From positions 1-64,000 of the IMG/VR virus record IMGVR_UViG_3300022074_000021: 64,000 nucleotides of DNA; one strand, written 5' to 3'. A model generated the notes under the pieces. That model had not been told where the DNA came from. It did no database searches and saw nothing but the letters and a program-made list of their open reading frames with translations. This stretch comes from a virus. Numbering within the stretch: the first letter of the stretch is position 1; every line of letters begins with the position of its first letter. Made by a program: the position numbers and the translations under genes. Positions 3,737 through 36,562 of this stretch are shown one piece after another.

Positions 3737-4104
3737 TGGTAAGATCCTTATTAATTACAGCAGCTGTAGCAGCATTATTTGCATTTGGTCTTCAAGAGTT
3801 TATTGGGTTTTGGAATACATTTTCACTAACTATAGGTATTCAATTTATAGTGTTTTGGGTTATAAATTCTCGTCAACAGCTTGATAAAGATACTTTATAT
3901 AGTGAATTTGAGACAAATCTAGATAGTATTTTAGAGCTAAGTAGGGTTTCAGTAGAGTGTCCTTGTGGAAACTATGTTTTTAAAGAAGAGGTCTTTATGA
4001 ACTCTGATAATATATATAGATGTCCTAAATGTAACAATAATATTAAACTAGATGCGCAAATCCGGGCAGTGTTACAGACAGATCCAGAAGAAGTAACAGG
4101 ATAA
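3736..4104 (+). CDS. Membrane protein with C-terminal zinc ribbon, 122 aa
   Basis: Two hydrophobic segments at about residues 4-22 and 26-44 suggest a membrane hairpin. They are followed by a charged linker and a C-terminal zinc ribbon with paired cysteines, CPCG and CPKC, about 23 residues apart. The protein would be anchored in the inner membrane with the ribbon probably in the cytoplasm. Translation is coupled to the preceding gene through a TAATG overlap. The function is unknown. Host takeover, lysis timing or assembly at the membrane are all possible, and nothing in the sequence decides between them. Confidence 0.7.
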   Translation: MVRSLLITAAVAALFAFGLQEFIGFWNTFSLTIGIQFIVFWVINSRQQLDKDTLYSEFETNLDSILELSRVSVECPCGNYVFKEEVFMNSDNIYRCPKCNNNIKLDAQIRAVLQTDPEEVTG

Positions 4105-4114
4105 GGAACTTTTT

Positions 4115-4122
4115 TATAATTA
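4115..4122 (+). promoter_or_regulatory. Late-type promoter, TATAATTA
   Basis: This near-consensus late box sits exactly 5 nt before the ATG at 4128, matching the spacing of the better boxes. Confidence 0.5.
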
Positions 4123-4127
4123 GATAT

Positions 4128-4388
4128 ATGAATAATATAAATAGTAGTAGCAATATCGAAATAAAGCGTAAAGACGGTAATACCGAGTATATGAGTCAAG
4201 CAGAATTTGCTAGGTGGGCATGTCTAGTAGAAGGTATTCAAGCTGTTGATCAAAAATTACTTAATGCTAAAGTACCTGAGTCTAATACTAAGTGGATTAA
4301 GCCACTTGCCTTTGAGAAGTATGTCCAAGAACGCTTTCATTCAATGCTCCGAGACGTAGAAGTTGAACATCAGCTAGGAAATATTTAA
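4128..4388 (+). CDS. Hypothetical protein, 86 aa
   Basis: This is a small soluble protein with likely helical segments (QAEFARWACLVEGIQAVDQK and AFEKYVQERFHSML). No motif is recognised. The start is supported by a late-type box at the standard 5-nt spacing. It ends 13 nt from the convergent stop of the giant repeat protein. Confidence 0.65.
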   Translation: MNNINSSSNIEIKRKDGNTEYMSQAEFARWACLVEGIQAVDQKLLNAKVPESNTKWIKPLAFEKYVQERFHSMLRDVEVEHQLGNI

Positions 4389-4401
4389 GTATTAGGAGCA
4401 G

Positions 4402-7400
4402 TTAAGCAGACCCACCAGCAAGTTCAATCTCAAGAATTTTATCAGCTATACCAGGCCCAAGATATATATTGTTACCAATTGAAGTACCAAGAGTGTACCA
4501 ACCATTAGTTGCTCCTGAGTTAGAAAGAGTTGATGTAATATCTTGAAAACCAATCGAATCATTTACTGGGTTAATCCAGATAATATAAGGTATATTCCAG
4601 GGATTTGAGTATACTTTACCATCGCCTCCTAATACTGAACCGAAAGAAGCAGCTTTAGCTGTATCTGCATCTGATTCAGAACCACCATTAAGCATCGCGT
4701 CAATAATAGCTTGTGGATACGGAATTTCAGTAGCTGAATCATTAGAAGTATCTATTTTAAGAATAGAACGTGCTCGGTGACCATGTGCGTAAATACATCC
4801 ATTCCCTGCAAGAGCACCATATTTATACTTGTTAAAGTATGTTTTTGTCTGTAGCATGCCACCAGGTGCAGTACTAAATAGATCGTTGTCGATTGGAGCG
4901 TTACCAGTAATATAGTCAGCACCCCAAGTTGAAATACCAGTGGTTGTATCAACAATATTAATACGAGATGCTCCTAATGGCATGCCATAAATTTTACCAT
5001 TATTACCAGCAACACCCCCTTCCAAAGAATCATAATGTTTAATAGCAGTACCTGAACCTTCTACAGCATAGTTAAACCTTGTTATAAATATAGCATCAGT
5101 TCTTGGAGGGGTAGGGCGTATAATAGATGCTTCTTTACTATCTGTATTTGTATTAACAACTAGCCAGACGTAGTTTCCACTTTTATATGAAGGAATATAC
5201 ACTCGGTTATTATAGTAGGCCGGTCCACGACATTGAAGATTAATTCCCGATGCAAATCCAGTTACTTCAGAAAAGGTTGGAGGGGTTTGTGTAGTATTAA
5301 TAATTAACGGTGCGTCCGCTTGTTGTGGTCCTAGATATATTTTACCATTAGGTGCCATAGCACCACCAATATACTTTGCTAATCCAGAATTACCAAAAGA
5401 TGTAATATCATATTGATCTTGCGACTCATCAGAAAGATTAGTGACTGTAACATAATTAGAAGCATACGGTACTAAGTATAACAACCCATCATTACCTTGA
5501 ATAGCACCACGATACATAATATTAACACCAACTGAAAGATCATTACCTATAAACCGGTAGTTTGTAGGGCCTGGATTTGCAGGAGGTGTTGCGCTCGGTG
5601 TAACTGAAACAGATGGCACCGGAGTGTTTGATACTACTGGTGTAACTGAGACACTAGAAGTAGGAGATACACTTGGTGAAGGTAAAATAATATTAGGGGT
5701 AGTGCTTGGTGTAACTAATAATGACGGTACCGGAGTGTTTGATATTGATGGTGTAACTGAGACACTAGAAGTAGGAGATACACTTGGTGATACAGGTATA
5801 TTGTTAGGAGTAACGCTAGGTGTAACAGAGACTGACGGTACCGGAGTGTTTGATATTGATGGTGTAATAGATGGTGTGGAAGATACACTTGGTGATACAG
5901 GTATATTGTTAGGAGTAACGCTAGGTGTAACAGAGACTGATGGTACAGGTGTAGTTGTGATTGATGGTGTAACAGATGGGGTGGAAGATACGCTTGGTGA
6001 TAGCGGTACAACTCGTACAGGACATTCTAACGTATAGAACCAGCATGGAAGTTCATCTAATGGGTTCTCTACGGTAACATATGCATCACGGGTGTTAGGA
6101 CAATTTAATCTAACCGTAATACTACCGGCTAAAGATGTATCGATAGTAGGATAACCGTCAGGGGATAAGCTTAACCCACTGTAATCTATATTGCGTTTTA
6201 ATAAAGCAGTTATAAATTGCTTACGCTTATGGCCACCATGAGTGTATTCTTCTGAACCAATGAAGCCTGTATCAATTATTACTACCTTTTTGTAAGTAAC
6301 AATAAATCGATCAGGACTTCCTTCACAAACATTATATCTAAAGGTAATATCACGCTCCACAGCAGTTGTTGGTGTTACAGATGGAGTAACTGATAACGTA
6401 ATACTTGGAGTAATACTTGGAGTAACTGATGGAGTAACTGAAGGCGTAACTGAAGAAGTTGGTGTTACAGATGGAGTAACTGATAACGTAACACTTGGAG
6501 TAATACTTGGAGTAACACTTGGAGTTATACTTGGAGTTATACTTGGGGTAACGCTCGATGTTGGTGTTATACTTGGTGTAATCGACGGCGTAGCTGAAGA
6601 AGTTGGTGTTACAGATGGAGTAACTGATAACGTAATACTAGGAGTAATACTAGGAGTAATACTTGGAGTAACACTTGGAGTAATCGACGGAGTTACACTT
6701 GGAGTAACGCTCGATGTTGGTGTTACACTTGGAGTAACGCTCGATGTTGGTGTTATACTTGGAGTAACACTCGGAGTAACACTTGGAGTGGGTGTGATTG
6801 ACGGGGTTGTAGAAGTAGATGCACCTGGTGTTTGAGTAACGCTTGGGGTAATACTAGGTGTTGCACTCTGAGTCGGGGATACAGATGGGGTAACTGAAGG
6901 AGTTATAGAAGATGTAACACTAGGTGTAACTGAGCTCGTAGGTGTAATACTCGGAGTAATAGACAGAGTAATACTCGGAGTAATCGACGGAGTTACACTT
7001 GGAGTAACGCTCGATGTTGGTGTAACTGATGGAGTAATACTCGGAGTAATAGATGGTGTAACACTTGGCGTAACTGAAATCGACGTGGTTATACTTGGAG
7101 TAACACTTGGAGTAATAGACGCAGTAACACTTGGTGTAATCGATGGAGTTATACTTGGAGTTATACTTGGTGTAATCGATGGAGTAACACTTGAAGTAAC
7201 TGATGGTGTAACACTCGGAGTAACAGAGCTCGTTGGAGTTATACTTGGAGTAATACTTGGTGTAATCGACGGAGTTACACTTGGAGTAACGCTAGATGTT
7301 GGTGTTATACTTGGAGTAACACTCGAAGTAACACTCGGAGTAACAGAGCTCGTTGGAGTAATACTTGGAGTAATACTTGGTGTAATCGACGGAGTTACAC

Positions 7401-10400
7401 TTGGAGTAACTGATGGAGTAACACTTGGAGTAACAGAGCTCGTTGGAGTTATACTTGGAGTAATACTTGGTGTAATCGACGGAGTTACACTTGGAGTAAC
7501 TGATGGAGTAACACTTGGAGTAACAGAGCTCGTTGGTGTTACACTTGGAGTAACAGAGATCGTTGGAGTTATACTTGGGGTAACAGAGGGTGTAACACTA
7601 GGTGTAACTGACGCTGGTGGCGACGTTGGTGGTGTATTACTAGGTGTAACGCTTATAGTTGGAGTAACTGAAGGCGTAACTGAAGAAGTTGGTGTTACAG
7701 ATGGAGTAACTGATAACGTAATACTAGGAGTAATACTAGGAGTAATACTTGGTGTAATCGACGGAGTTACACTTGGAGTAACGCTCGATGTTGGTGTAAT
7801 ACTTGGAGTAACTGACGGCGTAACACTAGAGGTTATGCTCGGAGTAATACTTGGTGTAATCGACGGCGTAACACTTGGTGTAACGCTCGATGTTGGTGTT
7901 ATACTTGGAGTAACTGATGGAGTAACTGAAGGCGTAACTGAAGAAGTTGGTGTTACAGATGGAGTAACTGATAACGTAACACTTGGAGTAATACTTTGAG
8001 TAATACTTGGAGTAACACTTGGAGTTATACTTGGAGTAACGCTCGATGTTGGTGTAATACTTGGTGTAATCGACGGCGTAACACTTGGAGTAACGCTCGA
8101 TGTTGGTGTTACACTTGGAGTAACTGATGGAGTAACTGAAGAAGTTGGTGTTACAGATGCAGTAACTGATAACGTAACACTTGGAGTAATACTTGGAGTT
8201 ATACTTGGAGTAATACTTGGTGTAATCGACGGAGTTACACTTGGAGTAACGCTCGATGTTGGTGTTATACTCGGAGTAACACTAGAGGTTATGCTCGGAG
8301 TAATACTTGGTGTAATCGATGAAGTAACACTTGGAGTAACTGAACTTGTGGGAGTAATTGAAGGTGTTACTGACGGCGTAACACTAGAGGTTATGCTCGG
8401 AGTAACACTAGGTGTGGGTGTAACTGACGGTGTAACTGACGGTGTAATACTTACAGAAATCGATGGCGTTACTGATGGAGTAATAGTTGTCGAAGGGGTA
8501 ACTGATGGAGTAATCGACGGTGTAATCGACGGTGTAATCGACGGTGTAACTGATGGAGTAGGTGTTACTGATGGAGTAACTGATGGCGTTACTGATGGAG
8601 TAATAGTTGTCGAAGGGGTAACTGATGGAGTAATCGACGGTGTAATCGACGGTGTAATCGACGGTGTAACTGATGGAGTAGGTGTTACTGATGGAGTAAC
8701 TGATGGAGTAACTGATGAAGTAGGTGTTACTGATGGAGTAACTGATGGAGTAACTGATGGAGTAACTGATGGAGTTACACTTAAGGTAATAGACGGGGTA
8801 ACTGATGGTGTTGTCGATGGTGATGCACCTGGAGAACTAGTAATACTAGGAGTAACAGAGGGTGTAACACTAGAGGTTATACTCGGAGTTACTGATGGAG
8901 TTACTGAGCTTGTAGGAGTAATCGATGGTGTAATCGATGGAGTAATCGATGGAGTTACTGAACTTGTAGGAGTAATCGATGGAGTTACGCTGGGCGTTAC
9001 TGATGGAGTTACAGAGCTTGTAGGTGTAATCGATGGAGTAATCGATGGAGTAATCGATGGGGTAATCGATGGAGTTACTGAGCTTGTAGGAGTAATCGAT
9101 GGTGTAATCGATGGAGTTACGCTGGGCGTTACTGATGGAGTTACAGAGCTTGTAGGTGTTACAGATGGTGTAATCGATGGAGTAATCGATGGAGTAACTG
9201 ATGGTGTTACAGAGCTTGTAGGTGTAATCGATGGAGTAATCGATGGAGTAATCGATGGGGTAATCGATGGAGTTACAGAGCTTGTAGGTGTTACAGATGG
9301 AGTAATCGATGGAGTTACGCTGGGCGTTACTGATGGAGTTACAGAGCTTGTAGGTGTTACAGATGGTGTAATCGATGGAGTAATCGATGGAGTTACTGAG
9401 CTTGTAGGAGTAATCGATGGTGTAATCGATGAAGTAATCGATGGAGTTATGCTGGGAGTTACTGATGGAGTAATACTTGGTGTAACACTAGGTGTAACAC
9501 TAGGAGTAACTGAACTTGTAGGAGTTACACTTGGAGTAATACTTGGTGTAACTGATGGAGTTATACTAGGAGTTGGTGTTATAGAAGGTGTAACACTAGG
9601 AGTAACTGAACTTGTAGGAGTTACACTTGGAGTAATACTTGGTGTAATCGATGAAGTAACACTTGGAGTAACTGAACTTGTGGGAGTAATTGAAGGTGTT
9701 ACTGATGGAGTTATACTAGGAGTAACACTTGGAGTAACTGAACTTGTGGGAGTAATTGAAGGTGTAACACTAGGTGTAACACTAGGAGTAACTGAACTTG
9801 TAGGAGTTACACTTGGAGTAATACTTGGTGTAACTGATGGAGTTATACTAGGAGTAACAGAGCTCGAAGGTGTAATCGACGGTGTAACACTTGGTGTAAT
9901 CGATGGAGTTACACTTGGAGTAATACTTGATGTAATCGATAATGTTGGCGTTATGCTTGGAGTAACACTAGATGTTGGGGTAATCGAGGGGGTAATCGAT
10001 GGAGTAATCGATAAGGATGGTGGTGGTGATGGGGGAGGTGATTGAGTAACACTAGGTGTTACAGAGCTTGTAGGTGTTATACTAGGGGTAACTGAGCTTG
10101 ATGGAGTTATACTAGGAGTAACACTAGGTGTAACACTAGGTGTAATTGATGGAGTTATACTAGGAGTAACAGTGGTTGTAGGAGTAACACTCGGTGTTGG
10201 TGACGAAGGTGGTGATGGAGGTGGTGATGGAGGTGGTGATGTGGAAGCACTTGGTGTAACAGATGGCGTTACTGATGGCGTTACACTTGATGTTGGTGTT
10301 ATGCTTGGAGTAATCGATGGTGTTACTGAGCTTGTAGGAGTAATCGATGGAGTAACTGACGGTGTTACTGACGGTGTTACTGAGCTTGTAGGTGTAATCG

Positions 10401-11451
10401 ATGGAGTAATCGATGGAGTAACGGAAGGTGTAATCGATGGAGTAATCGATGGAGTAATCGATGGAGTAACTGATGGAGTAACAGAAGGTGTTACAGAGCT
10501 TGTAGGTGTTATACTCGGAGTAATAGAAGGTGTTACTGTTGGAGTAACAGAAGGTGTTACAGAGCTTGTAGGTGTTATACTCGGAGTAATAGAAGGTGTT
10601 ACTGTTGGAGTAACAGAAGGTGTTACAGAGCTTGTAGGAGTAATCGATGGAGTAATCGATGGAGTAACTGATGGAGTAACAGAAGGTGTTACAGAGCTTG
10701 TAGGAGTAATCGATGGAGTAATCGATGGAGTAATCGATGGAGTAACTGATGGTGTTACAGAGCTTGTAGGTGTAACAGAAGGTGTTATAGAAGGTGTAAT
10801 CGATGGAGTAACAGAAGGTGTAACAGAGCTTGTAGGTGTAATCGATGGAGTAATCGATGGAGTAATCGATGGTGTTACAGAGCTTGTAGGTGTTATACTC
10901 GGAGTTACTGACGGTGTTACAGAAGGTGTTACAGAGCTTGTAGGTGTAATCGATGGAGTAATCGATGGAGTAACTGATGGTGTTACAGAGCTTGTGGGTG
11001 TAATCGATGGAGTAATTGATGGAGTAATCGATGGTGTTACTGAGCTTGTAGGTGTAATCGATGGAGTAATCGATGGAGTAACTGATGGTGTTACAGAGCT
11101 TGTGGGTGTAATCGATGGAGTAATTGATGGAGTAATCGATGGTGTTACTGAGCTTGTAGGAGTTATACTCGGAGTAATCGATGGGGTAACACTAGGTGTT
11201 ACTGAGCTTGTAGGAGTTATACTCGGAGTAATCGATGGGGTAACACTAGGTGTTACTGAGCTTGTAGGAGTTATACTCGGAGTAGCAGAAGGTGTTGCTG
11301 ATGGAGTAGCAGAAGGTGTTGCTGATGGAGTAGCTGAACTACTAGGACAAGGGGAAGGTGAAGATGAAGATGAACAACCAGAAGGAGTTTTCGACGGCGT
11401 TACAGTCGGCGTTGGAGTAGCAGAAGGTGAAGATGAACTCGAACTAGACAT
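4402..11451 (-). CDS. Giant Ser/Thr/Pro-repeat adhesin-like protein with C-terminal beta-propeller, 2349 aa
   Basis: This is probably a very long virion fibre or surface adhesin. Residues 1 to about 1690 are almost entirely S-[V/I]-T-P tetrapeptides broken by TSSVTP, after a Ser-rich start containing CPSSSAT. Residues about 1695-1817 form a non-repetitive domain with DTGFIG and PDGYP motifs, also present in the 879-aa neighbour. A second Ser/Pro repeat stretch runs to about 1959. The C-terminus has seven copies of a G-x4-[D/N]-G-x-[I/V]-Y-x2-P motif, as expected for a seven-bladed propeller, and the same motif recurs in the protein at 35135-36562. No signal peptide is seen. The gene follows the 879-aa gene by 29 nt. 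The repeat shaft could be glycosylated, but that is speculation. Confidence 0.8.
6380..11340 (-). repeat. Roughly 5-kb array of 12-bp units
   Basis: The DNA is built of degenerate 12-bp units, such as GGAGTAATCGAT and GGTGTTACTGAT on the plus strand, each encoding one S-[V/I]-T-P tetrapeptide. They are grouped into longer higher-order blocks separated by the TSSVTP element. Long open frames on the opposite strand are a by-product of the same period. Confidence 0.9.
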
Positions 11452-11480
11452 ATTTCACTAGAGTGTAGCGGTGCTGGTTA

Positions 11481-14120
11481 TTAAGATGGAGACGGAGTCG
11501 GGGTCGGAGTCGGAGTCGGAGTTGAAGTTGGGGCCGGCACATCCATAATTAGGACATCAATAAAAGGCCCGTTACCGTTAATCTGTACTCTCATAGTCTC
11601 AGTACCTTCAGTTATACCATCTTCAAGAGCAGAAAAGATTCTTGCTGCAACATTATTGTTAATTGTAAAGTTGCCTGATGAAGCCTGAGCTATATCACCC
11701 GAACTAATACCACTTACTACATACGGTACGTTTGTTCCATCAGCAAGGTTTGTTGTATTAAGGGTAATAACAACGTTGGCACCTTCATATATAATATCGT
11801 AATTACGACTAAGTGTATATGTTATTGGTGCTGGTGGAGATGGAGCGGGAGTAGCAGAAGGTGTTATTGATGGCGTAGCTGACGGGGATGGAGCTGCTGG
11901 TGTAACTGATGGATTTACACTAGGAGTTGCACTTGGAGTTGCACTTGGAGTAACACTCGTTGTAGGAGTAATTGATGGTGTAATACTAGTAGTGACAGAA
12001 GGTGTAACACTAGTAGTAATAGATGGAGTAACTGAAGCTGCAACCGGTGGTGATGCAACAGGAGAAGCTGATGGAGTTACACTTGGAGTTACACTTGGAG
12101 TTGCACTTGGAGTAACACTCGTTGTAGGAGTAATTGATGGTGTAATACTAGTAGTGACAGAAGGTGTAACACTAGTAGTAATAGATGGCGTTACCGATAG
12201 TGTTACCGGTGGTGATGGATTGGGAGAAGCTGATGGAGTTACACTTGGAGTTACACTTGGGGTTACACTAGGAGTAACGCTCGATGTAGGAGTAATTGAT
12301 GGTGTAATGCTAGTAGTGACAGAAGGCGTAACAGAAAGTGTAACAGATGGTGTAACAGATGGTGTAACAGATGGTGTAGGTGTTGTAGACGTAGTAACAG
12401 ATGGTGTAGGTGTTGTAGACGTAGTAACAGATGGTGTAGGTGTTGTAGACGTAGTAACAGATGGTGTAGGTGTTGTAGACGTAGTAACAGATGGTGTAAT
12501 TGACGAGGATACTGATGGAGATGCAAACGGTGTAAGTGTAACACTAGGTGTAGGTGTTATAGACGGGGTAATTGTTATAGATGGTGTTACAGAAGGAGTA
12601 ACACTGGCTGTATGTGTTATAGACGGGGTAATTGTTATAGATGGTGTTACAGAAGGAGTAACACTGGCAGCGGGGGTGGTAGTAGGGGTAGGAGTAGGTG
12701 TAGCAAACGGTGTAGGTGTTATAGACGGGGTAATTGTTATAGATGGTGTTACAGAAGGAGTAACAGCTATAGAGCATTCAGGGAATGGGTTAATAGGGCT
12801 AAGTATAACTCGTCGAAGTTGTTCAAATCTACGAGAAACATCACATAAATATTCATCAGTTATTCCACATGATAGCGTATAAAACGGACATCCAACAAAT
12901 ACTTCCCAGTCAGTTGTGGATAAGGGTGAGTATACAGTAGCTAGAAGTCGTGATGTATCTGTGTCTTTATAGATAGAGCTTGTCCCCGTGGTCAAAGTAC
13001 TAACCACGTATGGATATCCATCTGGTGCGAGATTAATTAACGGGTAATTTGCATATTTTAAAGAATCTTGTAGTCCGGAAGTAAAGCGGCTTCTTAAAGC
13101 ACCACCGTAATTCCAAGTTTCATTACCCACAAAGCCAGTATCTAATCGAATAATATCATCATATGTATAAACAAACCGGTATGGGTATAAAGGAGTGCTC
13201 CATTTTAGATCGATATCCCCAATATAGGCGGACATTCCGTATAAAATAGAAGTTTCAAATATTCCAGGGTAGCTAGTACCCAGAGTTGATAAATCACAAG
13301 TATTATCAGGGCATCCGAGATTTGGCTCCATTCCTAAAAACGGTAATCTAGGTCTATCTTCTGAAATTGGTAGTTCTTGAGGTACTGATCCAGATGTTAC
13401 GTTATTAATAGCAAATGCTGTTAATGGAGTAAACGCAAAGTTACCTTCTACCGTTTCTTTTTGATTACCTTCAACGTGAAACCCAGTTGTAACGATTGTA
13501 CCATTAGTATTCGAACCGGTAAGAGGCTTAACAAAGGATATCCCTGGGCGATATCGTGAATTAGAATAGACATCAATACTGGAAAGTTCTTGCGTAAGTA
13601 AATGAGTGTAGAAGGTATCAGACTCAGACTTGTAGTCAACAACAACCTTACGACCATAGTTACCAAGCCGTGCACGTACAGTTTTCTTACCTGGACTAAT
13701 TAATTCAAAAGCACTAATCGCTTGAGTTGCAATTATATCGAGATTTTGATCTCTTATCGTAATACTATTAGGTTCATAACTTCTACCTGACCGCGTAGCG
13801 CCGTCTATATATGTAAGTTCTGATGCAAAAACTCCTAGACTATCAAATCCAATACCTAGTATAGGTTTGTTTAAAGGCTGAGAAGATAAAGATGCACTAA
13901 GGAGAGTATTTCCAGAGAACCCAAGATCAGGTCCAACACCTCCACCACTTAACGGAAAACTTGCATCTTGCAAAAACATGCAATATCCAATTTCATCACC
14001 AGACGAGAAGTTACTTAGTTCATAAGTGAATGACCAAGTAATATCATATTGAGGTGACATGCCTTCCTCGAATATCTGCACTGCAACAGCTGAGAGTGGA
14101 AGGTCTGTAGGATAATCCAT
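11481..14120 (-). CDS. Lectin-like, repeat and Calx-beta virion protein, 879 aa
   Basis: This is a probable tail-fibre or adhesin subunit. Residues 1 to about 240 resemble an L-type-lectin-like beta sandwich (YCMFLQDASFPLSGGGVGP, then LGIGFDSLGVF). Residues about 310-440 hold the DTGFVG and PDGYP module shared with the 2349-aa protein. Residues about 447-763 are Ser/Thr/Pro repeats of the same S-[V/I]-T-P type, and about 767-862 look like a Calx-beta domain (EGANVVITLNT, then DGITEGTETM). The tail is TPTPTP. A late box stands 5 nt before the ATG. Two tandem TAA stops end the frame, so it is not simply split from the downstream giant gene. The lectin and Calx-beta calls are by pattern and less certain than the architecture. 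Confidence 0.75.
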   Translation of the reverse strand: MDYPTDLPLSAVAVQIFEEGMSPQYDITWSFTYELSNFSSGDEIGYCMFLQDASFPLSGGGVGPDLGFSGNTLLSASLSSQPLNKPILGIGFDSLGVFASELTYIDGATRSGRSYEPNSITIRDQNLDIIATQAISAFELISPGKKTVRARLGNYGRKVVVDYKSESDTFYTHLLTQELSSIDVYSNSRYRPGISFVKPLTGSNTNGTIVTTGFHVEGNQKETVEGNFAFTPLTAFAINNVTSGSVPQELPISEDRPRLPFLGMEPNLGCPDNTCDLSTLGTSYPGIFETSILYGMSAYIGDIDLKWSTPLYPYRFVYTYDDIIRLDTGFVGNETWNYGGALRSRFTSGLQDSLKYANYPLINLAPDGYPYVVSTLTTGTSSIYKDTDTSRLLATVYSPLSTTDWEVFVGCPFYTLSCGITDEYLCDVSRRFEQLRRVILSPINPFPECSIAVTPSVTPSITITPSITPTPFATPTPTPTTTPAASVTPSVTPSITITPSITHTASVTPSVTPSITITPSITPTPSVTLTPFASPSVSSSITPSVTTSTTPTPSVTTSTTPTPSVTTSTTPTPSVTTSTTPTPSVTPSVTPSVTLSVTPSVTTSITPSITPTSSVTPSVTPSVTPSVTPSASPNPSPPVTLSVTPSITTSVTPSVTTSITPSITPTTSVTPSATPSVTPSVTPSASPVASPPVAASVTPSITTSVTPSVTTSITPSITPTTSVTPSATPSATPSVNPSVTPAAPSPSATPSITPSATPAPSPPAPITYTLSRNYDIIYEGANVVITLNTTNLADGTNVPYVVSGISSGDIAQASSGNFTINNNVAARIFSALEDGITEGTETMRVQINGNGPFIDVLIMDVPAPTSTPTPTPTPTPSPS
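11870..12780 (-). repeat. Second Ser/Thr/Pro-coding repeat array
   Basis: This is the same kind of 12-bp coding repeat as in the giant gene, with larger near-identical blocks. One is a 39-bp unit repeated four times around 12370-12490 (encoding TPTPSVTTST), and another is a block of roughly 70 bp near 12545-12665. Recombination between the two arrays is possible. Confidence 0.85.
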
Positions 14121-14125
14121 ACAGA

Positions 14126-14133
14126 TATTTAAT
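14126..14133 (-). promoter_or_regulatory. Late promoter, ATTAAATA
   Basis: The late box ends 5 nt before the ATG at 14120 and should drive the two repeat-protein genes. Confidence 0.7.
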
Positions 14134-14175
14134 CTGATAATCTAAATTTCAAGTAAGTATAAATATAATTAACTA

Positions 14176-15771
14176 TTACATCCCCCATTCAAACTTGACT
14201 ATACCAGGTGCAGTGGCCTCATATGATCCACCAACACTATGATTTGAAGCCCCAGGAGATCCGGCACCTCCCCAAAATGACGGATTACCATTTACTTCTT
14301 CATCACCAGAACTAGTATCCATACCACCCCAAGCTCCAGAAAGAATATGCACAGAAACAACATGAGGATCATTAGGTAAGAATGAACCATTATTAGCGGT
14401 AAGTCCATCAGCCCAAGAGTCTTGTGCGGGAGCAATAGCGCCAATTGAACGGGCTAGCTCAGTACCACCAATAGAAATATATGAAGGTTGCCCATTTGTT
14501 CTAGCAGTAGTACGACCAGCTCCAACCGTGTAACTAATAGAAGTACCTATAGGAGCAGAAAGGATACCATATATAGTTGCAGCGGCTCCACCAGCAACAG
14601 AACCACCAGTTGCACCGGATCCAGTTACCCAAAACTTTGTATAAGTGGCTTTTGTGGTATAAGTGCCGGAACCAGCAGTGTCATAAGCTACTAGACCAGG
14701 CATAGGTAATCCTATTTCAATATCATTATTAAGAAGAGAGAAAGCTGTACTAGTAACGTTAGATCCATTAGAAGAAGCAGTTAATCCATTTGTAACAGTA
14801 ACATTGGATGTTGATACTACATCAGGCAATGCTTTAATAAAGAAGTTAACAGCTTTAGCGCTAACGCTACTTGTACCGGTACCTAAATGATATACGGTAC
14901 CACCTGCTGGATTACTATTTGCACCGTATAACACAGTACTTGCATAATTAGGTAAATTAAAATTAGTATCATTACCACCATATTGTGCACCAATTACACC
15001 AGAAAGAACTCTATAATCTGTACCAGCTAGTTGTTGACCATTACATAGCAACCAACCAGTAGGCATACTTGTTCCCGTAACAGTTTGAACGACTGTACCG
15101 ACCGGTACCGCGGAAGATGAAGAATTAAAAAATACAGTAGTAGAAGACTGTGGCGATGCCCATTTAAGATTTCCGAGACTATCGACGTTAAGAAAGCTAT
15201 TTGCTCCTCCTAATCCACCAGTTGGAAACGAATAGTCAACATTATTAATATTAAGTTTCTGTGGTAAATGTAGGTGACTAGTATTAAATGCTGTAATCCT
15301 ATTCGATTTTATTTGTGTACTACTTAAGGAAATCTGACCACTTACAAGCTCAATTGAATTACCTGTAAGTTCGTTTGAACCACTTAAATGTTGAGATGAT
15401 AGAGTACCTACTGAAATAGTTCCTAATGTATCATTTACGATAATTGAATCATTAGCCGCTACAAAAATTTGAGCAATCTTATTCCAACCTGTAGCTGTTT
15501 TAACATATAATATATTGTTTGTTGTATTATAAGCTATATCTCCTACAGCTCCTTCAACCAAGGCTGTATGATCAGCAACAGATCCTAAAAACTTATTACC
15601 TGTAATAAGACCACCTTGTGTTGAACCATCACCGATATACAACCGTTTACTATCTGTTGTATATCCTAATTCACCTTGATCAAGGGTTATATTTTGACGA
15701 TCAGCATTATCTCCACGACGAACGAGAAGTTTAAGAAGAGTATTTTCGAGAATTTCGATTTTTTTAGCCAT
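14176..15771 (-). CDS. Tail fibre protein with collar domain, 531 aa
   Basis: The N-terminus (LLVRRGDNADRQ, QGELGYTTD, LYIGDG) is the short module common at the start of phage fibre proteins and shared with the next upstream gene. A phage tail collar-type segment follows at about residues 215-275 (VGTVVQTVTGTSMPTGWLLC, then NLPNYA). The C-terminal part from about 370 is Gly/Ser-rich, as in fibre tips. It is probably a trimeric host-recognition fibre. The gene is preceded by only 5 nt after the stop of the 337-aa gene, so it belongs to the same operon. There is no independent late box. Confidence 0.8.
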   Translation of the reverse strand: MAKKIEILENTLLKLLVRRGDNADRQNITLDQGELGYTTDSKRLYIGDGSTQGGLITGNKFLGSVADHTALVEGAVGDIAYNTTNNILYVKTATGWNKIAQIFVAANDSIIVNDTLGTISVGTLSSQHLSGSNELTGNSIELVSGQISLSSTQIKSNRITAFNTSHLHLPQKLNINNVDYSFPTGGLGGANSFLNVDSLGNLKWASPQSSTTVFFNSSSSAVPVGTVVQTVTGTSMPTGWLLCNGQQLAGTDYRVLSGVIGAQYGGNDTNFNLPNYASTVLYGANSNPAGGTVYHLGTGTSSVSAKAVNFFIKALPDVVSTSNVTVTNGLTASSNGSNVTSTAFSLLNNDIEIGLPMPGLVAYDTAGSGTYTTKATYTKFWVTGSGATGGSVAGGAAATIYGILSAPIGTSISYTVGAGRTTARTNGQPSYISIGGTELARSIGAIAPAQDSWADGLTANNGSFLPNDPHVVSVHILSGAWGGMDTSSGDEEVNGNPSFWGGAGSPGASNHSVGGSYEATAPGIVKFEWGM

Positions 15772-15776
15772 GATTT

Positions 15777-16790
15777 TTAGAATTTAAATACTGGGATTGC
15801 GAAGTTACCATCTGCACCGGATGCAATTTGAATGAAACCTGCGGAAGATAGAGCAATGGCCACGGCGGATGTTTGATTACTATTAGCTGATAAAGCATTA
15901 ATAACTGTTTCCCCTGTAGCCCCTGGTCTTGCTGCATTTAGCGATCCAAAGAAGATTTGCTCGTTACCGGTTCCGTCAGTTCCAGAAAGATTTTGTTGAA
16001 CTGCATTAGTTGATGAAGTAATACGACCAGTTGAATCAAATACAGAAGTAAAAAGCGGTTGAGCCGTGCCACCGCCTATAGTTTCAAGAGCAATTGTAGA
16101 ACCGCTTTTTTCAAGACCTGTTCCAAGTGCAGCTGATTGAATAGCATTACCATCAACGGTATTTGTACCTGCAGCAGCAAAGTCAAGCTTACCACCCGTA
16201 AAAGTAAATGCATTAGTAACATCAACACCAATTGCATCACCCGCACCCCCACTAAGGCCTAATCCAATATCCCCAGCACTAATATTAACATGAGATGTTT
16301 CAAGCTCACCGTTCGCATTAATCGTAATAGAGGAATTATCAATTCTTGCTGATAATCCGGTTGATCCATAGGCAAGGCCTCCGCTAAGATCAACAACATT
16401 ACTACTTAATTGAGCAATACCAACACCATTGTTAGAAATATGAAGATTATTGCCAGCAGTATATTCTAAAGTTAGATCATCTGGTCTTGTTCCTATAAAC
16501 GCCCATGATGTTAAATTAGCAGCATATGTGCCGGATAGTTGATATAATAAGTTATCCTCATAAACTAGATCTCCATTAACAGCCTCAGTAAGGTCAGTTC
16601 TGGTACCAACATACATCGGAGTATGTATAACATTACTTATATTATTACCTCCTACAGTAAACCCATCACCAACCCAAACGCGTTTAGCATCAGTTGTATA
16701 CCCGAGTTCACCTTGTTCGAGAGTTACTGCCTTGCGTTGAGCATCAGTACCTCTTCTTAGTTTTAATTTTACTATTTCAATATCTGGCAT
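15777..16790 (-). CDS. Tail fibre protein, 337 aa
   Basis: The N-terminal module (KLKLRRGTDAQRK, LEQGELGYTTDAKR, VWVGDG) is a paralogue of that in the 531-aa neighbour. The rest is beta-rich, with Ser/Thr/Asn/Gly repeats typical of fibre shafts (NNGVGIAQLSSNVVDLSGG). No collar motif is evident here. It lies 12 nt after the collar protein gene. It is probably a fibre subunit made together with its neighbours. Which of the fibres binds the receptor cannot be told. Confidence 0.75.
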   Translation of the reverse strand: MPDIEIVKLKLRRGTDAQRKAVTLEQGELGYTTDAKRVWVGDGFTVGGNNISNVIHTPMYVGTRTDLTEAVNGDLVYEDNLLYQLSGTYAANLTSWAFIGTRPDDLTLEYTAGNNLHISNNGVGIAQLSSNVVDLSGGLAYGSTGLSARIDNSSITINANGELETSHVNISAGDIGLGLSGGAGDAIGVDVTNAFTFTGGKLDFAAAGTNTVDGNAIQSAALGTGLEKSGSTIALETIGGGTAQPLFTSVFDSTGRITSSTNAVQQNLSGTDGTGNEQIFFGSLNAARPGATGETVINALSANSNQTSAVAIALSSAGFIQIASGADGNFAIPVFKF

Positions 16791-16802: not shown

Positions 16803-17414
16803 TTAAGCTGTTCTTTGCCATACATACATACCGAATGTTGGCGGAATATTATTATGTGATTGATTACCACCTGTATTATCCGGTAGTAGGGGAGTTGCTT
16901 GTGGTCTAGATGGATTACCATGATCGGCATAGTAGCCTACGTTAGGATCATTTCCTAACCTCGAGGAGTTCTTAATAGGGTGAGTATGTTCTGGTAGTTC
17001 GGTAACTGTTAGTTGATGCTTATACTCCCCAGTTGTATCAACATCACCAGCTGCAACTGTATGGGTATCGCTACTATTATCAGTACCTTGACCAACTCCT
17101 GCTATGAACTTTCCTTTAGATACTTGTAGCCAAGTTGTACCGGTAAATCGATCACCTGGATTAGTATTGTCAATAGAAAAAATAACTGAACCAACTGGGT
17201 AAATTGTATCAGCAATCGCGGCTTTAAAATTGCTACCAAGTGCACCATCTACATCAATTCCTTGACCTGCTCTTCCTAAACTAAGTGCACTTTTATTACC
17301 AAATCCGTCATAAATATCTTCTTGCCCGGACGCTGGTAGAGCCTCACCTTTAGCATGAAGCACACCGACATATGTTTCGGAAATGTTGGTGTTTGTTAAT
17401 GATTCACTTGCCAT
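16803..17414 (-). CDS. Phage tail collar-domain fibre/baseplate protein, 203 aa
   Basis: The collar-like core runs from PVGSVIFSIDNTNPGDRF through TWLQVSKGKFIAGVGQG and ends in the typical HNNIPPTFGMYVWQRTA. The His-rich LTVTELPEHTHP motif is characteristic of short fibre and collar proteins. The start is set at ATG 17414 because a CATAAATA late box lies exactly 5 nt upstream. An upstream in-frame TTG at 17447 would place the promoter inside the gene. It is the first gene of a fibre operon running leftward to 14176. Confidence 0.82.
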   Translation of the reverse strand: MASESLTNTNISETYVGVLHAKGEALPASGQEDIYDGFGNKSALSLGRAGQGIDVDGALGSNFKAAIADTIYPVGSVIFSIDNTNPGDRFTGTTWLQVSKGKFIAGVGQGTDNSSDTHTVAAGDVDTTGEYKHQLTVTELPEHTHPIKNSSRLGNDPNVGYYADHGNPSRPQATPLLPDNTGGNQSHNNIPPTFGMYVWQRTA

Positions 17415-17419
17415 ACATA

Positions 17420-17427
17420 TATTTATG
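17420..17427 (-). promoter_or_regulatory. Late promoter, CATAAATA
   Basis: The box ends 5 nt before ATG 17414 and decides that start over a longer reading from 17447. Confidence 0.75.
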
Positions 17428-17447
17428 GTAGTGGCAGTATTAAGCAA

Positions 17448-28480: not shown

Positions 28481-30307
28481 TTACAATCGTCGTATAGCAA
28501 TCTTATTCGTGATATTCTGAGGATTGTAAAAGTACGCAAATTGGAAATCTTCTAATTGATAATTTAATGACTGTAAAACATTATCTTCTTCTTTATAATC
28601 AGGATTCCATATGATAAAATTTAAATTAGGAACTACACTATCACCATTAATAGTGTCGATAGCTGTAACACCCGGTATATTAAGAATATCCGTTGTAAGA
28701 TTAGCAACTGATACTATACTACCTAATTGAACATTATTAAAATAATTGTTAATGATATTATAAATCGAAGATCTAACTGCACCATCATTAATAGCTTGAT
28801 TTTTATCTAAAGTTACTCGTAGAGATGAGTTATTAACAGTATCATCAACTGAATCATCATTAGAATTTGGTGCACCAAAAGCAAATGCTTTAAAAATCGC
28901 ATCAGAAATAACTACATTTTGTGTTACATCTTTTTTACTATTGCAGAATTCTGTAATAAGTTGCTTTTGTGCTGGATTCAAATAGTTCGGAGTTAGTCCG
29001 TTTAATGTAGGATTACTGTCAGGAACTGTATATACGTATACATTATTAAAGGAAGTAGAAGAAGAAAAAAGCACTTGCGAATATAAAACACGAGCATCAT
29101 CATTACCATTTGCTAATCCTATTTCATTGTAATAGGATAATACTTTTGATGTGTAATCTAAATTAGATAAAATTTTAACATCGCGTGTTATATTATTAAA
29201 GTTTCTATTAATTTGGTACTCATAATCATTCTTTGTAACTAAACGATTTTGAGAAGCAAAAACTTTTGGTGCGTTACGTCTTATTTCTGCAACAGTTTCA
29301 GCTACCTTAGTTGGGGATGAAGCAAATTGATTATTAACAAGAATATCACCAAGCTGGGAAGGCACTATCAGTGTTTGATCAGTAGAATATATAATATTTT
29401 TAATAGCATTAAAGTTTGGAGATCCATATAAATTAAATGAACTATTTGTAAGGGCATTAGGGTTTATTATACCAGCTTCGTTATCAGAGGTAACATAATA
29501 GATAATTACTGTATCATTAGCTTCTAATTGCTTACCGTTCAAATTATTACCAAATTTAAACTCATAATTACCACTACCATTAAGACGCTTTTCATATTTT
29601 TTAGCATCAGACTCTTCTAAAAACAACGAAGGAGTTTCAGTATATTCTGACCAAGATCCTGTTGTGTTATTTTGTACAAATATGTTAAAAGTATTATCAC
29701 TAACAAAATTTGTATTACTAACATTAGATACACTCTGTTTAAATTGTTTAGATGTAAACGTATCAACTAAAATAATATTTTCATAAGGCTCACCAGTTGC
29801 ATTAAACGTTGTTTCTGTTACAGCTCCTTGATAGAGAGTACTATTGGAAGTAGGTACAATTTCTAACGTATTATCGGTCGTTTTCTCAAATGTAATATCG
29901 TCTGTGGCAACATACGTGCTACCATTTGTGGCTATAGAACTAAATCTAGGAATTGTATATACGTTTGAAGTTAAATTTACTGCGGAAAGAGATATGTTAA
30001 CTAAAGATGTTTGATCACCCAGTGGGTTATATCCTATATTAGATACCAACTTATTCATGTTTTCATAAATAGTCGCAGTATTAAAAGCAGATTCATTTGA
30101 AGTTGTGTTTAACTGAAACAATAACACGTGATACATATAAGCTACTACATCAATAAACGCACTAAAATTTGATCCCTCAAAGTTTTGATCTGTAAATATT
30201 TCGTTCTCATTAAGCCTATCAATTATTAACCCCTTTAAAGAGTTGGCGTCAAAAGTGAGATAAGCATTCTTTGGAAGGCTGTAGTCTGTAAAATCTTGAA
30301 GGCTCAT
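28481..30307 (-). CDS. 6: Baseplate wedge protein (T4 gp6-like)
   Basis: This is a wedge subunit that dimerises around the baseplate hub. The conserved core is recognisable at about residues 315-365 (VAEIRRNAPKVFASQNRLVT, KNDYEYQINR), the pattern of gp6 and J-type baseplate proteins. The C-terminal region has LGSIVSVANLTTDILNIPGV and AIDTINGD, as in this family. It is 608 aa against 660 in T4. It directly follows gp25 in transcription order, the usual wedge neighbour. A late box with 6-nt spacing precedes the ATG. Confidence 0.85.
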   Translation of the reverse strand: MSLQDFTDYSLPKNAYLTFDANSLKGLIIDRLNENEIFTDQNFEGSNFSAFIDVVAYMYHVLLFQLNTTSNESAFNTATIYENMNKLVSNIGYNPLGDQTSLVNISLSAVNLTSNVYTIPRFSSIATNGSTYVATDDITFEKTTDNTLEIVPTSNSTLYQGAVTETTFNATGEPYENIILVDTFTSKQFKQSVSNVSNTNFVSDNTFNIFVQNNTTGSWSEYTETPSLFLEESDAKKYEKRLNGSGNYEFKFGNNLNGKQLEANDTVIIYYVTSDNEAGIINPNALTNSSFNLYGSPNFNAIKNIIYSTDQTLIVPSQLGDILVNNQFASSPTKVAETVAEIRRNAPKVFASQNRLVTKNDYEYQINRNFNNITRDVKILSNLDYTSKVLSYYNEIGLANGNDDARVLYSQVLFSSSTSFNNVYVYTVPDSNPTLNGLTPNYLNPAQKQLITEFCNSKKDVTQNVVISDAIFKAFAFGAPNSNDDSVDDTVNNSSLRVTLDKNQAINDGAVRSSIYNIINNYFNNVQLGSIVSVANLTTDILNIPGVTAIDTINGDSVVPNLNFIIWNPDYKEEDNVLQSLNYQLEDFQFAYFYNPQNITNKIAIRRL

Positions 30308-32131: not shown

Positions 32132-32137
32132 TTTGTG

Positions 32138-32145
32138 TATAAATA
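32138..32145 (+). promoter_or_regulatory. Late promoter, perfect TATAAATA
   Basis: This is a full T4 consensus late box, 5 nt before ATG 32151. It fixes that start rather than a GTG at 32133. Confidence 0.82.
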
Positions 32146-32150
32146 TATGT

Positions 32151-33893: not shown

Positions 33894-33894
33894 T

Positions 33895-35094
33895 ATGGAA
33901 AGAAGAACATTTATACAAGCATTAGCAACCAGTACTTACGGAGTTAAAGCATATGCAAACGCACCGGTGCCCGAAAAAGTAAAAGCAAAAAACATTATCT
34001 ATATTTACCTTGATGGTGGTATGAGTCATATTGATACTTTTGATCCGAAAGATGATAAAGAGGTAATGGGTGACACGGAAAAAATTATTACACGAGGAGA
34101 TTTCCAGATAGGAAATAGACTTCCTAAATTAGCAGAAGTAATGAATAAAGCCGTTGTAATACGCTCAACAACGTCTAAGACAGGTGCTCATCAGCAAGCT
34201 CAATATCTCAGCAGAACTTCATATAAACAACTTGGTACTATTACTCACCCATCGTTAGGATCATGGGTGTCGCATATATCGGATAGGGATAAAGCTATTC
34301 CGGATTTTGTTCTTGTTAATGGTATAAGCACCCACCCGGGTTCGGGGTTTCTTCCAAAGAGACAATCACCCTTACCTATTATAGATCCTAAAGATGGTCT
34401 TAAGAACTCCAAGGTTGATGATAAGCTTCAAGAAAGAATGGCTTTACTTAAAGTTATTAATAAAAAGATTAACGCACCTATAGCTGATACTTATAACGAA
34501 TTCTATGATGATACAGTTCGGTTTCTTAAATCTAAAGACTTAGAGTTATTTGATATTAGTAAAGAGCCATCTGCTAAGAGAGAGCGTTATGGTACTTCTC
34601 GGTTAGGTCAAGGATTACTTCTTGCTAAAAGATTAGTTAAAGGAGATATTAAATTTATTGAAGTATCATCTGGTGGTTGGGATACCCATACAGATAACTT
34701 TACAAAGCTTGATGACAGAGTTAAAGAGCTTGATGATGGTGTAAGCGCTCTTGTTGAAGATTTAGAAAGTGAAGGCTTACTTGATTCTACTCTTATTGTT
34801 ATCGCCACAGAGTTTGGACGAACACCAAAGATTAATGTTAATACAGGTCGCGATCACTACCCTAAAGCATACTCAACTGTTTTAATAGGAGCTGGTATTA
34901 AGAGTGGTATGGCTTATGGCGAGACTGATGACACAGCTTCAAAGGTTATAAAAGATGCTGTAACGATATCTGACATTAATGCTACTGTCGCACATTTAGC
35001 CGGACTAGATGTTACTAAAGAATATTCATCTCCGTCTGGACGTCCATTTGAATTAGCTGATAAAGGAAAGGTAATTAAAGATGTGTTGGGGTAG
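33895..35094 (+). CDS. DUF1501-domain protein with Tat-like signal, 399 aa
   Basis: The N-terminus MERRTFIQALATSTYGVKAY resembles a twin-arginine signal (RR-x-F), as in cellular DUF1501 proteins. Family hallmarks are IIYIYLDGGMSHIDTFDPK, SSGGWDTHTDN, ATEFGRTPKI and GRDHYPKAYS. The fold is related to sulfatases and alkaline phosphatases, so a metal-dependent hydrolase is possible, but activity is not established for the family. The gene starts 2 nt after the DUF1549/DUF1553 stop with no ribosome-binding sequence, indicating coupled translation. The pair should act outside the cytoplasm or in the virion. Confidence 0.88.
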   Translation: MERRTFIQALATSTYGVKAYANAPVPEKVKAKNIIYIYLDGGMSHIDTFDPKDDKEVMGDTEKIITRGDFQIGNRLPKLAEVMNKAVVIRSTTSKTGAHQQAQYLSRTSYKQLGTITHPSLGSWVSHISDRDKAIPDFVLVNGISTHPGSGFLPKRQSPLPIIDPKDGLKNSKVDDKLQERMALLKVINKKINAPIADTYNEFYDDTVRFLKSKDLELFDISKEPSAKRERYGTSRLGQGLLLAKRLVKGDIKFIEVSSGGWDTHTDNFTKLDDRVKELDDGVSALVEDLESEGLLDSTLIVIATEFGRTPKINVNTGRDHYPKAYSTVLIGAGIKSGMAYGETDDTASKVIKDAVTISDINATVAHLAGLDVTKEYSSPSGRPFELADKGKVIKDVLG

Positions 35095-35121
35095 TCAATA
35101 CTTGCTTAAAGTGCTAAGAGC

Positions 35122-35129
35122 TATAAATA
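35122..35129 (+). promoter_or_regulatory. Late promoter, perfect TATAAATA
   Basis: A consensus late box 5 nt before ATG 35135 gives the propeller gene its own late transcript and decides its start against an ATG at 35081 inside the upstream gene. Confidence 0.8.
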
Positions 35130-35134
35130 AAGGT

Positions 35135-36562
35135 ATGAGCACTAACCCTGAGGCAAGTTGGCCTAAGTTTAAATATTTAGAAGGTGAAATAAGCGGTAAC
35201 CTTACTAAAACCCGTACTATGGGAGTTGATGATACTGGTATTATTCATTCATTAGGTTATAAATCTGATATGCATATTAAAACTGATATTGCAGCAGGTA
35301 CAATAGAGAAGCAAGCAGAAGGATTAAAAGGTTTTATCGGTACTGTTGAAGCATCAGATGGTAATACTTATTACATGCCGGCCTATTCAAGCTCTATTGG
35401 TATTCTCAACAAAAAAACAGGTGAGATAACTACTGTCAAAAAATTTAATATGACTCCGCAGGTACGTTCAGGAGCAGAAGGTGCTAATGGTATTATTTAT
35501 ATGCCATCATATACAAGTACATTAAAAATATATACATATGATACAAAAACTGGGGAAGTAGATTCTTTTACACCCACAAAGAAAGGATCACACGGTCACA
35601 TATGGGGAGCAGCAGCTGATAAGAAAGGTGAAGTATATATGCCCCCAGCGCTTAACAATTACGTAGCTAAAATAGATAAGAATGGTGAATTTAAATATTT
35701 AGATGGTCCTAGAGTTACATCTGGAGTGTCTGGGTTTAATGTAAAATATGTTGGTGCTACCTATGTAGAGTCTGTCGACAAAGTATTTTGCTTACCTCGT
35801 AAAGGTAGTAAAATTTTAATTATAAATTGTGCAGATGATACATATGAAGAAATTGATTTACCGGCTGATTACCTCGCAGTTTCAAATGTTAACAGAAACT
35901 TTCATGGCTACTTAGCTCCTGATGGATGGCTGTATAGTGCTTTTTGGGCTGATACATACTGTTTTAGAATCAACCCAGCAACATATGAAATTCAATGGAA
36001 TAATTATGAAAAGGAATTTGAAGATAGTGGTATTCAGAACAGAGGTACAGGATATTCAACAGCTGCTATTACAATAGGGGATGATGTTTATCTTGGATTA
36101 GCAGGAACAACTAAAGCAGTTAAGCTTGAGTTTGAAAAGCAGTTAGTTATTTCTAATGAAGATGTAGCTCCATCACCTTCAACTACTGCTTGTGGCAGTT
36201 GTCCTTCTTCTTCTGCTACTATATGTGGTAGTTCTCCATCACCAACGCCAACAGCTACTGCATGCGGCAGTTGTCCTTCTTCTTCTGCTACTATATGTGG
36301 TAGTTGCCCATCGTCATCTGCTACTATATGTGGTAGTTGTCCTTCTTCTTCTGCTACTATATGTGGTAGTTGTCCTTCTTCTTCAGCTACTATATGTGGT
36401 AGTTGCCCATCGTCATCTGCTACTATATGTGGTAGTTGCCCATCATCTTCAGCTACTATATGTGGTAGTTGTCCTTCCTCTTCAGCTACTATATGTGGTA
36501 GTTGCCCATCATCTTCAGCTACTATATGTTGCAGCTATAGTTGTTGTAATACTTGTTGCTAA
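35135..36562 (+). CDS. Beta-propeller protein with C-terminal Cys-repeat tail, 475 aa
   Basis: Residues about 60-350 contain at least six copies of a blade motif like G-x4-[D/N]-G-x2-Y-x-P (SDGNTYYMPAYSS, ANGIIYMPSYTS, DGWLYSAFW), the same motif as in the C-terminus of the 2349-aa protein. From about residue 365 the chain is a run of 11-residue units, ICGSCPSSSAT, ending in a very Cys-rich ICCSYSCCNTCC. No signal peptide is seen. It shares a late-expressed cassette with the DUF1501 pair and is followed by a strong terminator. It is probably a surface or adhesion protein. The Cys tail may crosslink or bind metal (inference). Confidence 0.78.
   Translation: MSTNPEASWPKFKYLEGEISGNLTKTRTMGVDDTGIIHSLGYKSDMHIKTDIAAGTIEKQAEGLKGFIGTVEASDGNTYYMPAYSSSIGILNKKTGEITTVKKFNMTPQVRSGAEGANGIIYMPSYTSTLKIYTYDTKTGEVDSFTPTKKGSHGHIWGAAADKKGEVYMPPALNNYVAKIDKNGEFKYLDGPRVTSGVSGFNVKYVGATYVESVDKVFCLPRKGSKILIINCADDTYEEIDLPADYLAVSNVNRNFHGYLAPDGWLYSAFWADTYCFRINPATYEIQWNNYEKEFEDSGIQNRGTGYSTAAITIGDDVYLGLAGTTKAVKLEFEKQLVISNEDVAPSPSTTACGSCPSSSATICGSSPSPTPTATACGSCPSSSATICGSCPSSSATICGSCPSSSATICGSCPSSSATICGSCPSSSATICGSCPSSSATICGSCPSSSATICGSCPSSSATICCSYSCCNTCC
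36187..36535 (+). repeat. 33-bp cysteine-coding tandem repeats
   Basis: Units of 33 bp encode ICGSCPSSSAT about nine times, with one longer Ser/Pro-rich variant near the front. Units alternate in synonymous codons for the PSSS part (CCATCGTCATCT versus CCTTCTTCTTCT), suggesting expansion by block duplication. Confidence 0.9.

Follow-up and report, generated by a model that had tools for sequence, protein, structure and literature searches.

A long uncharged S[VI]TP repeat in a tail-module protein of an uncultivated T4-like phage, a probable stalk for exchangeable domains

The stretch of viral DNA analyzed here (the window, which covers bases 1-64000 of an uncultivated virus record 76,332 bp long) carries on its minus strand an open reading frame, 11451..4402, that encodes a 2,349-aa protein (translation of window:4402-11451), and ~70% of this protein is one uncharged Ser-Val/Ile-Thr-Pro repeat. 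The array is under selection as coding sequence, its gene ends a run of tail genes, its product carries globular domains, arrays of the same kind recur in other viruses, and array length has turned over stepwise across evolutionary distance. Probably the array serves a modular virion protein as its stalk, a disordered spacer that holds swappable binding heads. Presence in the virion, an extended conformation, a binding function and the end by which the protein attaches are what we infer about it.

The array and selection on its protein sequence

The array protein and the gene that faces its 3' end are laid out as follows.

6370..11451, minus strand: residues 1-1694 of the 2,349-aa ORF, the S[VI]TP array, capped at the N terminus by a short Ser-rich stretch
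6024..6360, minus strand: 'DTGFxG' beta domain, 112 aa (residues 1698-1809; AF2 pLDDT 89)
5578..6023, minus strand: second, degenerate STP linker (TRF 5592-5973, 111-bp period)
4405..5577, minus strand: C-terminal domain, 391 aa, predicted beta-propeller fold, no Pfam family
4128..4388, plus strand: conserved convergent flank gene, a marker for array-gene 3' ends in relatives

Residues 1-1694 contain 324 exact S[VI]TP tetrads (182 SVTP and 142 SITP), which make up 76.5% of the residues, and the whole 2,349-aa protein contains 333. Approximately 55 'TS' dipeptides split the array into blocks, mostly of 16 or 20 residues, and because these inserts punctuate it the tandem-repeat periods are 12n or 12n+6 bp; a few irregular or proline-rich islands also break it up. 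Ser and Thr account for 54% of the array, Pro recurs regularly, Gly is found at 3 of 1,694 residues, and K, R, D, E, H, F, Y, W, C and M are all absent between residues 41 and 1694. The unmodified array has a mass of ~164 kDa, and the longest tryptic peptide of the protein is 1,679 residues. A degenerate DNA pattern for SVTPSVTPS matched the window 19 times, compared with no matches in 100 of 100 dinucleotide shuffles, confirming that the array is real and far above chance expectation. These counts bear out an earlier note on this DNA, which had described ~1,650 residues of degenerate S-[V/I]-T-P repeat; the array, for which it gave the interval 6380-11340, starts at the start codon, at 11451 and not at 11340.

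The same note had taken the uninterrupted frame as a sign of selection on the protein. The selection stands, but the argument does not: the plus strand over the array DNA is also open, with frames of 304, 584 and 429 codons, and an open frame is weak evidence of selection because a stop-free 12/6-bp unit stays open by itself. Selection was instead assessed by comparing array copies with each other, gap-free. In all 2,414 of 2,414 self-alignments the offset is a multiple of 6 bp, and in the 710 of at least 90 bp, which overlap so that counts are not independent, mismatches at codon positions 1:2:3 number 6258:3196:14172. Single-base codon differences between copies are 82% synonymous, as against 29.7% for random changes in the same codons, and two thirds of the remaining, non-synonymous differences are I/V exchanges. 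Serine in the tetrads is encoded by TCN 206 times and by AGY 118 times. Likewise, array mismatches between two other virus records, L066 and L044, are distributed over codon positions 1:2:3 as 156:106:457. The synonymous excess between copies and the in-frame unit changes indicate that this tandem-repeat coding array is maintained as protein.

Associated domains and the tail-module neighborhood

The model of the C-terminal domain (pLDDT 83, pTM 0.87) finds its best solved fold in virginiamycin B lyase (Foldseek E 3.9e-13; TM 0.84 on target; 12-13% identity), so that the domain is predicted to be a beta-propeller of the virginiamycin B lyase fold. Since the nearest fold is an enzyme, the propeller may have a catalytic or intracellular role. 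The C-terminal 655 residues have no Pfam match, and phrog_15511, to which no function is assigned, is their only match (E 0.005). A fold search with the DTGFxG domain against the PDB gave no match below E 0.28 and nothing significant; the domain shares 32% identity with residues ~313-420 in the upstream neighbor protein. Neither it nor the N-terminal domain of that neighbor matches any known binding family. For the latter domain an L-type lectin had been considered on a motif impression, and it was rejected because neither Pfam nor PDB sequences support it. The C-terminal 655 residues of the array protein likewise have no sequence match to the T4 long or short tail-fibre families, the protein's link to them being its position in the following cluster.

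11481..14120, minus strand: upstream neighbor, 879 aa, with a conserved N-terminal domain, a DTGFxG domain, its own STP array (~ residues 449-761), a further domain and a TPTP tail
14176..15771, minus strand: tail fibre, Mtd_N and Phage Tail Collar domains
15777..16790, minus strand: Mtd_N-domain fibre-like protein
16803..17447, minus strand: gp10 C-terminal-like baseplate/tail protein
28481..30307, minus strand: gp6-like baseplate wedge, on the same strand as the array gene (phrog_219, E 1e-35)
35081..36562, plus strand: propeller paralogue (E 1e-8 to the propeller of the array protein) with a CGSCPSSSATI repeat tail
49578..51920, minus strand: contractile tail sheath (PF17482, E 1e-14)

The array gene is the last in a minus-strand run that includes the sheath, the gp6-like wedge, the gp10-like protein and the two Mtd_N fibres. 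A sheath, a T4-type baseplate wedge and a large terminase (phrog_2, E 2e-56; only ~36% identical to isolates) are all present, which places this virus among T4-like contractile-tailed phages; together with the gp10-like protein and the collar fibre, they agree with the earlier assignment to a tailed phage. Gene position and domain types point to a phage adhesin or receptor-binding role for the array protein. Thus the adhesin stalk proposed earlier is borne out in its globular adhesin-type domains (the propeller fold and, in a relative, LamG), the label adhesin itself being drawn from domain type and gene position.

It is unlikely that the array protein is a non-virion product, released at lysis or shown on the infected cell, for example as a decoy or aggregation polymer. 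The protein has no recognized virion-attachment domain and its location in the virion is inferred, as such a product would have it, but its gene ends the tail run and adjoins fibre genes both in the window and in a related record (L025), in another virus record (G002) the STP frame and a baseplate wedge belong to one gene run, and by eye no N-terminal hydrophobic signal is seen in the array protein.

Several further features of this genome were observed. The two adjoining fibre-like genes at 14176-16790 both carry major-tropism-determinant N-terminal domains. The tail of the propeller paralogue (36177-36529, plus strand) is an 11-residue Cys-rich tandem repeat that a relative (L103) has too. 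Next to the paralogue, at 32133-35094 (plus strand), a DUF1549/DUF1553 (PSCyt2/PSD1) and DUF1501 gene pair lies inside this T4-like phage. Pairs of this kind are typical of Planctomycetota/Verrucomicrobiota, and the pair may be either a host clue or an auxiliary function. Relatives of the DUF1501 protein (61-95%) are found in 12 viral contigs of up to 170,908 bp (L168-L179), and the record of L020 has the same three-gene order, the DUF pair with the propeller paralogue. Outside the window, at 67270-68068 of the same phage's record, a P-II nitrogen regulatory gene (PF00543, E 2.9e-33; L104:10771-11148) is followed by an EF-hand protein gene (L104:11183-11569). A promoter and terminator scan of 3900-14400 found sites no more numerous than in shuffles.

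Recurrence, turnover and assembly of the arrays

Among 2.9 million viral contigs, a DNA pattern for a 12-residue STP peptide, which is blind to arrays coded by AGY serines alone, picked out 49 stretches, the biggest viral frames holding 739 (L073), 523 (L044), 213 and 189 tetrads. The same pattern found 51 stretches in 84,980 bacterial and archaeal species, with at most 14 tetrads per frame. The claim that the window array is among the longest low-complexity stretches is not supported, as a complete STP gene of 2,940 aa is found in another marine virus and G002 has a 4,688-aa STP-rich frame, which is interrupted by a 20-N gap and probably contains a frame error near its C terminus. Of 20 STP-bearing virus records searched with a contractile-sheath model, 13 have a sheath; this model was chosen over the phrog_2 terminase model, which matched only 6 of 32 records. 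The N-terminal head of G002 and both L044 heads have no sequence relation to the window heads. In a second contractile-tailed lineage, several adjoining STP-linked genes with Cys-rich heads lie in tandem (L070:3978-14716; G002, which is L114/L115, 22002-43089). Among isolate phages, tblastn gave no match to the C-terminal 655 residues or to the L044 protein heads, and the array DNA matched only XacN1, weakly, with the BLAST low-complexity filter on.

In relatives of the window protein the parts are shuffled. L025 has the collar fibre and upstream gene in the same order as the window, followed by a 945-aa protein with its parts permuted (propeller, TP linker, DTGFxG, TPTGTP array). Domain order is permuted in L077 and L078 too, where the propeller comes first, and with such permutations any fixed base-to-tip polarity would be tentative. 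The array gene of L023 carries a LamG lectin-type domain (E 1.4e-18). Propeller relatives with little or no STP (L015, L080, L085-L093) indicate that the stalk is dispensable to the propeller domain; in L015 the propeller is 71% identical, and GDGSQPFDREIE repeats stand in place of STP. By eye, the C-terminal domain of the STP-linked propeller protein of L077 (12431-13330) and L078 is trypsin-like (GDSGSP motif), with no Pfam match.

The arrays themselves are alike in type of peptide more than in DNA words. Relatives with flanks at 77-90% DNA identity have 0-7% of array 24-mers in common, with the exception of L018 (31%), and in the extreme case, L024, 2% of 24-mers but 89% of 16-aa words are shared with the window array. 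Drifted array peptides include SVTPTRTVEPTVTP (L017), PSVSVTPS (L021) and SASVTPSASVTP (L010). As judged from shared words, this shows the peptide retained and the DNA lost across relatives; point divergence alone removes most 24-mers, so no rate is measured. A purer PSVSVTPS octapeptide array, with exact DNA repeats of up to 134 bp, is found in L021 and L109-L112. That the array is a DNA-level element, such as a recombination hotspot or a packaging or regulatory repeat in which coding is incidental, is extremely improbable: strong local GC skew, periodicity and the open frames elsewhere would suit it, but variation is concentrated at synonymous sites, serine comes from two codon families, and relatives keep the peptide and not the DNA words.

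Array length varies as well. L066 and L044, with flanks 82% identical, differ by 50 array gaps in 2.66 kb (18.8/kb, as against 0.97/kb in the flanks, a 19-fold excess), 40 of the 50 being multiples of 6 bp, mostly 6 or 12 bp, in an alignment that is partly ambiguous within repeats. One STP linker stretch is swapped in frame between L077 and L078 (95% identical). The gap excess, the in-frame replacement and the scarcity of array words common to relatives with similar flanks would all be expected of a fast length-switching device, in which slippage or recombination alters reach within populations, as in phase-variable adhesins. We nevertheless think such a device improbable, as the 99.9%-identical pairs L058/L044 (1.9 kb of array) and L064/L052 have zero array indels, with the qualification that consensus assemblies hide minority lengths. 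Thus the earlier prediction of variable length is correct for L066 and L044 and is not seen between 99.9%-identical contigs, and turnover of length and sequence would appear to operate on an evolutionary time scale, not demonstrably on that of populations.

Every one of the 16 related contigs reaching into the array stops there, nine from the domain side (L009-L012, L048, L109-L112) and seven from the upstream-gene side (L017-L021, L023, L024), and the window's record alone spans the window array type; its assembled length is therefore uncertain. The earlier note had called the repeat blocks nearly identical in DNA. In general they are not, since the longest exact internal repeat is 125 bp, no 127-mer is repeated, and just 3% of the 24-mers in one array half recur in the other. 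Across 18 further array stretches, exact repeats reach 138 bp at most. The universal stopping of contigs within the array, and exact repeats so short as to suggest that only resolvable arrays survive, would be consistent with an artefact in which short-read assembly of the repeat produced the length or even the existence of the array. This is very unlikely. Independent contigs from different metagenomes join the array to the same flanks from both sides, the complete L044 gene was assembled and a second record agrees with it at 99.9% over part, the frame is intact across 1,694 codons, and such a bias would collapse an array, leaving the true one longer, and would not invent one. If only short-read-resolvable arrays get assembled, 5.1 kb may be an underestimate of array length; a short-read origin of the assemblies is our assumption, the record being silent. 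A k=127 assembler signature, considered on the basis of the 125-bp maximum, was weakened by the 134-138 bp reached in other arrays.

The proposed stalk and its relation to known systems

In the reading that we favor, the protein would come from the tail module of an uncultivated marine phage of T4-like type, and its 1,694-residue uncharged S[VI]TP segment would form a disordered, locally extended spacer. The spacer would set globular heads at a distance from the particle (here the DTGFxG domain and the propeller; in relatives, LamG and further domains), so that they may bind cell-surface or environmental polymers. Copies would be gained and lost in 6/12-bp in-frame steps through unequal recombination or slippage, and substitutions would be filtered to synonymous or I/V changes, so that composition, periodicity and frame are kept and exact sequence is not. 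Selection on composition and not on sequence fits a spacer role. At 0.31 nm per residue, we estimate a contour length of ~525 nm for 1,694 residues, corresponding to a flexible coil of ~30 nm or a stiffened brush of ~100 nm.

Stiffening could come from glycosylation, if a cytoplasmic glycosyltransferase of phage or host decorated Ser/Thr and turned the array into a mucin-like bottle-brush fibre. The 54% Ser+Thr content with regular Pro invites this idea, as do the RmlD-like, GDP-mannose/dTDP-glucose dehydratase-like and cytidylyltransferase-like enzymes encoded in the window. No protein glycosyltransferase was identified among the scanned proteins, however; the sole glycosyltransferase-like gene is GT9-like at E 0.056, under the Pfam cut-off, and the Bacteroidota sequon D-S/T-[AILMTV] occurs 0 times in the array and 5 times elsewhere in the protein. 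The site of action of PglL/PMT-type oligosaccharyltransferases lies outside the cytoplasm. The isolate XacN1, with short STP linkers, has at least two reported virion glycoproteins (PMC5852040), but comparable sugar genes of pelagimyophages have been read as LPS-related (PMC7029224). Glycosylation of the array is possible, with little in the gene content to favor it, and we regard the glycosylated stalk as rather doubtful.

More broadly, and tentatively, we suggest that S[VI]TP stalks of 1,700 to >4,500 residues, ultra-long, uncharged and possibly glycosylated, could be a standard tail component in several T4-like lineages of uncultivated marine phages, where they would provide long tethers for swappable heads. 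They would have been missed because short-read assemblies break at their genes and because the stalk is free of tryptic sites, charges and aromatic residues. Because similar repeat genes break short-read assemblies, they would be largely invisible so far in several uncultivated T4-like lineages, and because the array lacks tryptic sites ordinary proteomics would miss it too. STP arrays would explain a systematic hole in viral metagenomes, in which contigs stop at the stalk and heads are cut off from other tail genes. If virion-borne, the stalks would alter their phages' effective capture radius. The longest low-complexity region over 102 phage proteomes is 115 aa by that survey's own stringent criterion, and STP arrays are 15-40x longer than this maximum (PMC6821194). 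We found no description of the S[VI]TP peptide in the literature, and none of such composition, length, uncharged character and recurrence in the open-access literature, coverage of which is incomplete (absence of evidence).

Long low-complexity phage stalks are already known as a kind from collagen-like fibres. Collagen-like Gly-X-Y stalks of phages (PMC3368898) resemble the window protein in that globular ends flank a long in-frame shaft of periodic, low-complexity sequence, and differ from it in period: the array repeats S[VI]TP with TS inserts, has 3 Gly in 1,694 residues and is not built of Gly-X-Y. Mucin-like or Pro-Thr-Ser-rich spacers of secreted proteins are likewise Ser/Thr/Pro-rich, expected to be disordered and changing in length, whereas the array protein has no visible secretion signal and is likened to mucins for its composition. 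The seven-bladed propeller of virginiamycin B lyase is alike in predicted fold, at 12-13% identity, the window version being part of a phage tail-module protein. ORF236 of the Xanthomonas phage XacN1, an isolate, has a globular region between Ser/Thr/Pro linkers that include SVTPDVTP repeats; it differs in its 746 aa, its short linkers and its origin in a jumbo phage of another lineage. The tail whiskers of phage CBB (PMC5259590) are hair-like appendages of ~120 nm, a scale that a long disordered stalk could reach. Similar in setting is the tail-fibre/host-recognition cluster of marine T4-like phages (pelagi- and cyanomyophages; PMC7029224), where variable fibre genes of the structural region lie by Mtd, concanavalin-type and collagen-repeat domains, with sugar genes near. 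The window differs from these clusters in having an uncharged S[VI]TP array in place of a collagen shaft, a terminase only ~36% identical to those of isolates, and heads that lie outside Pfam.
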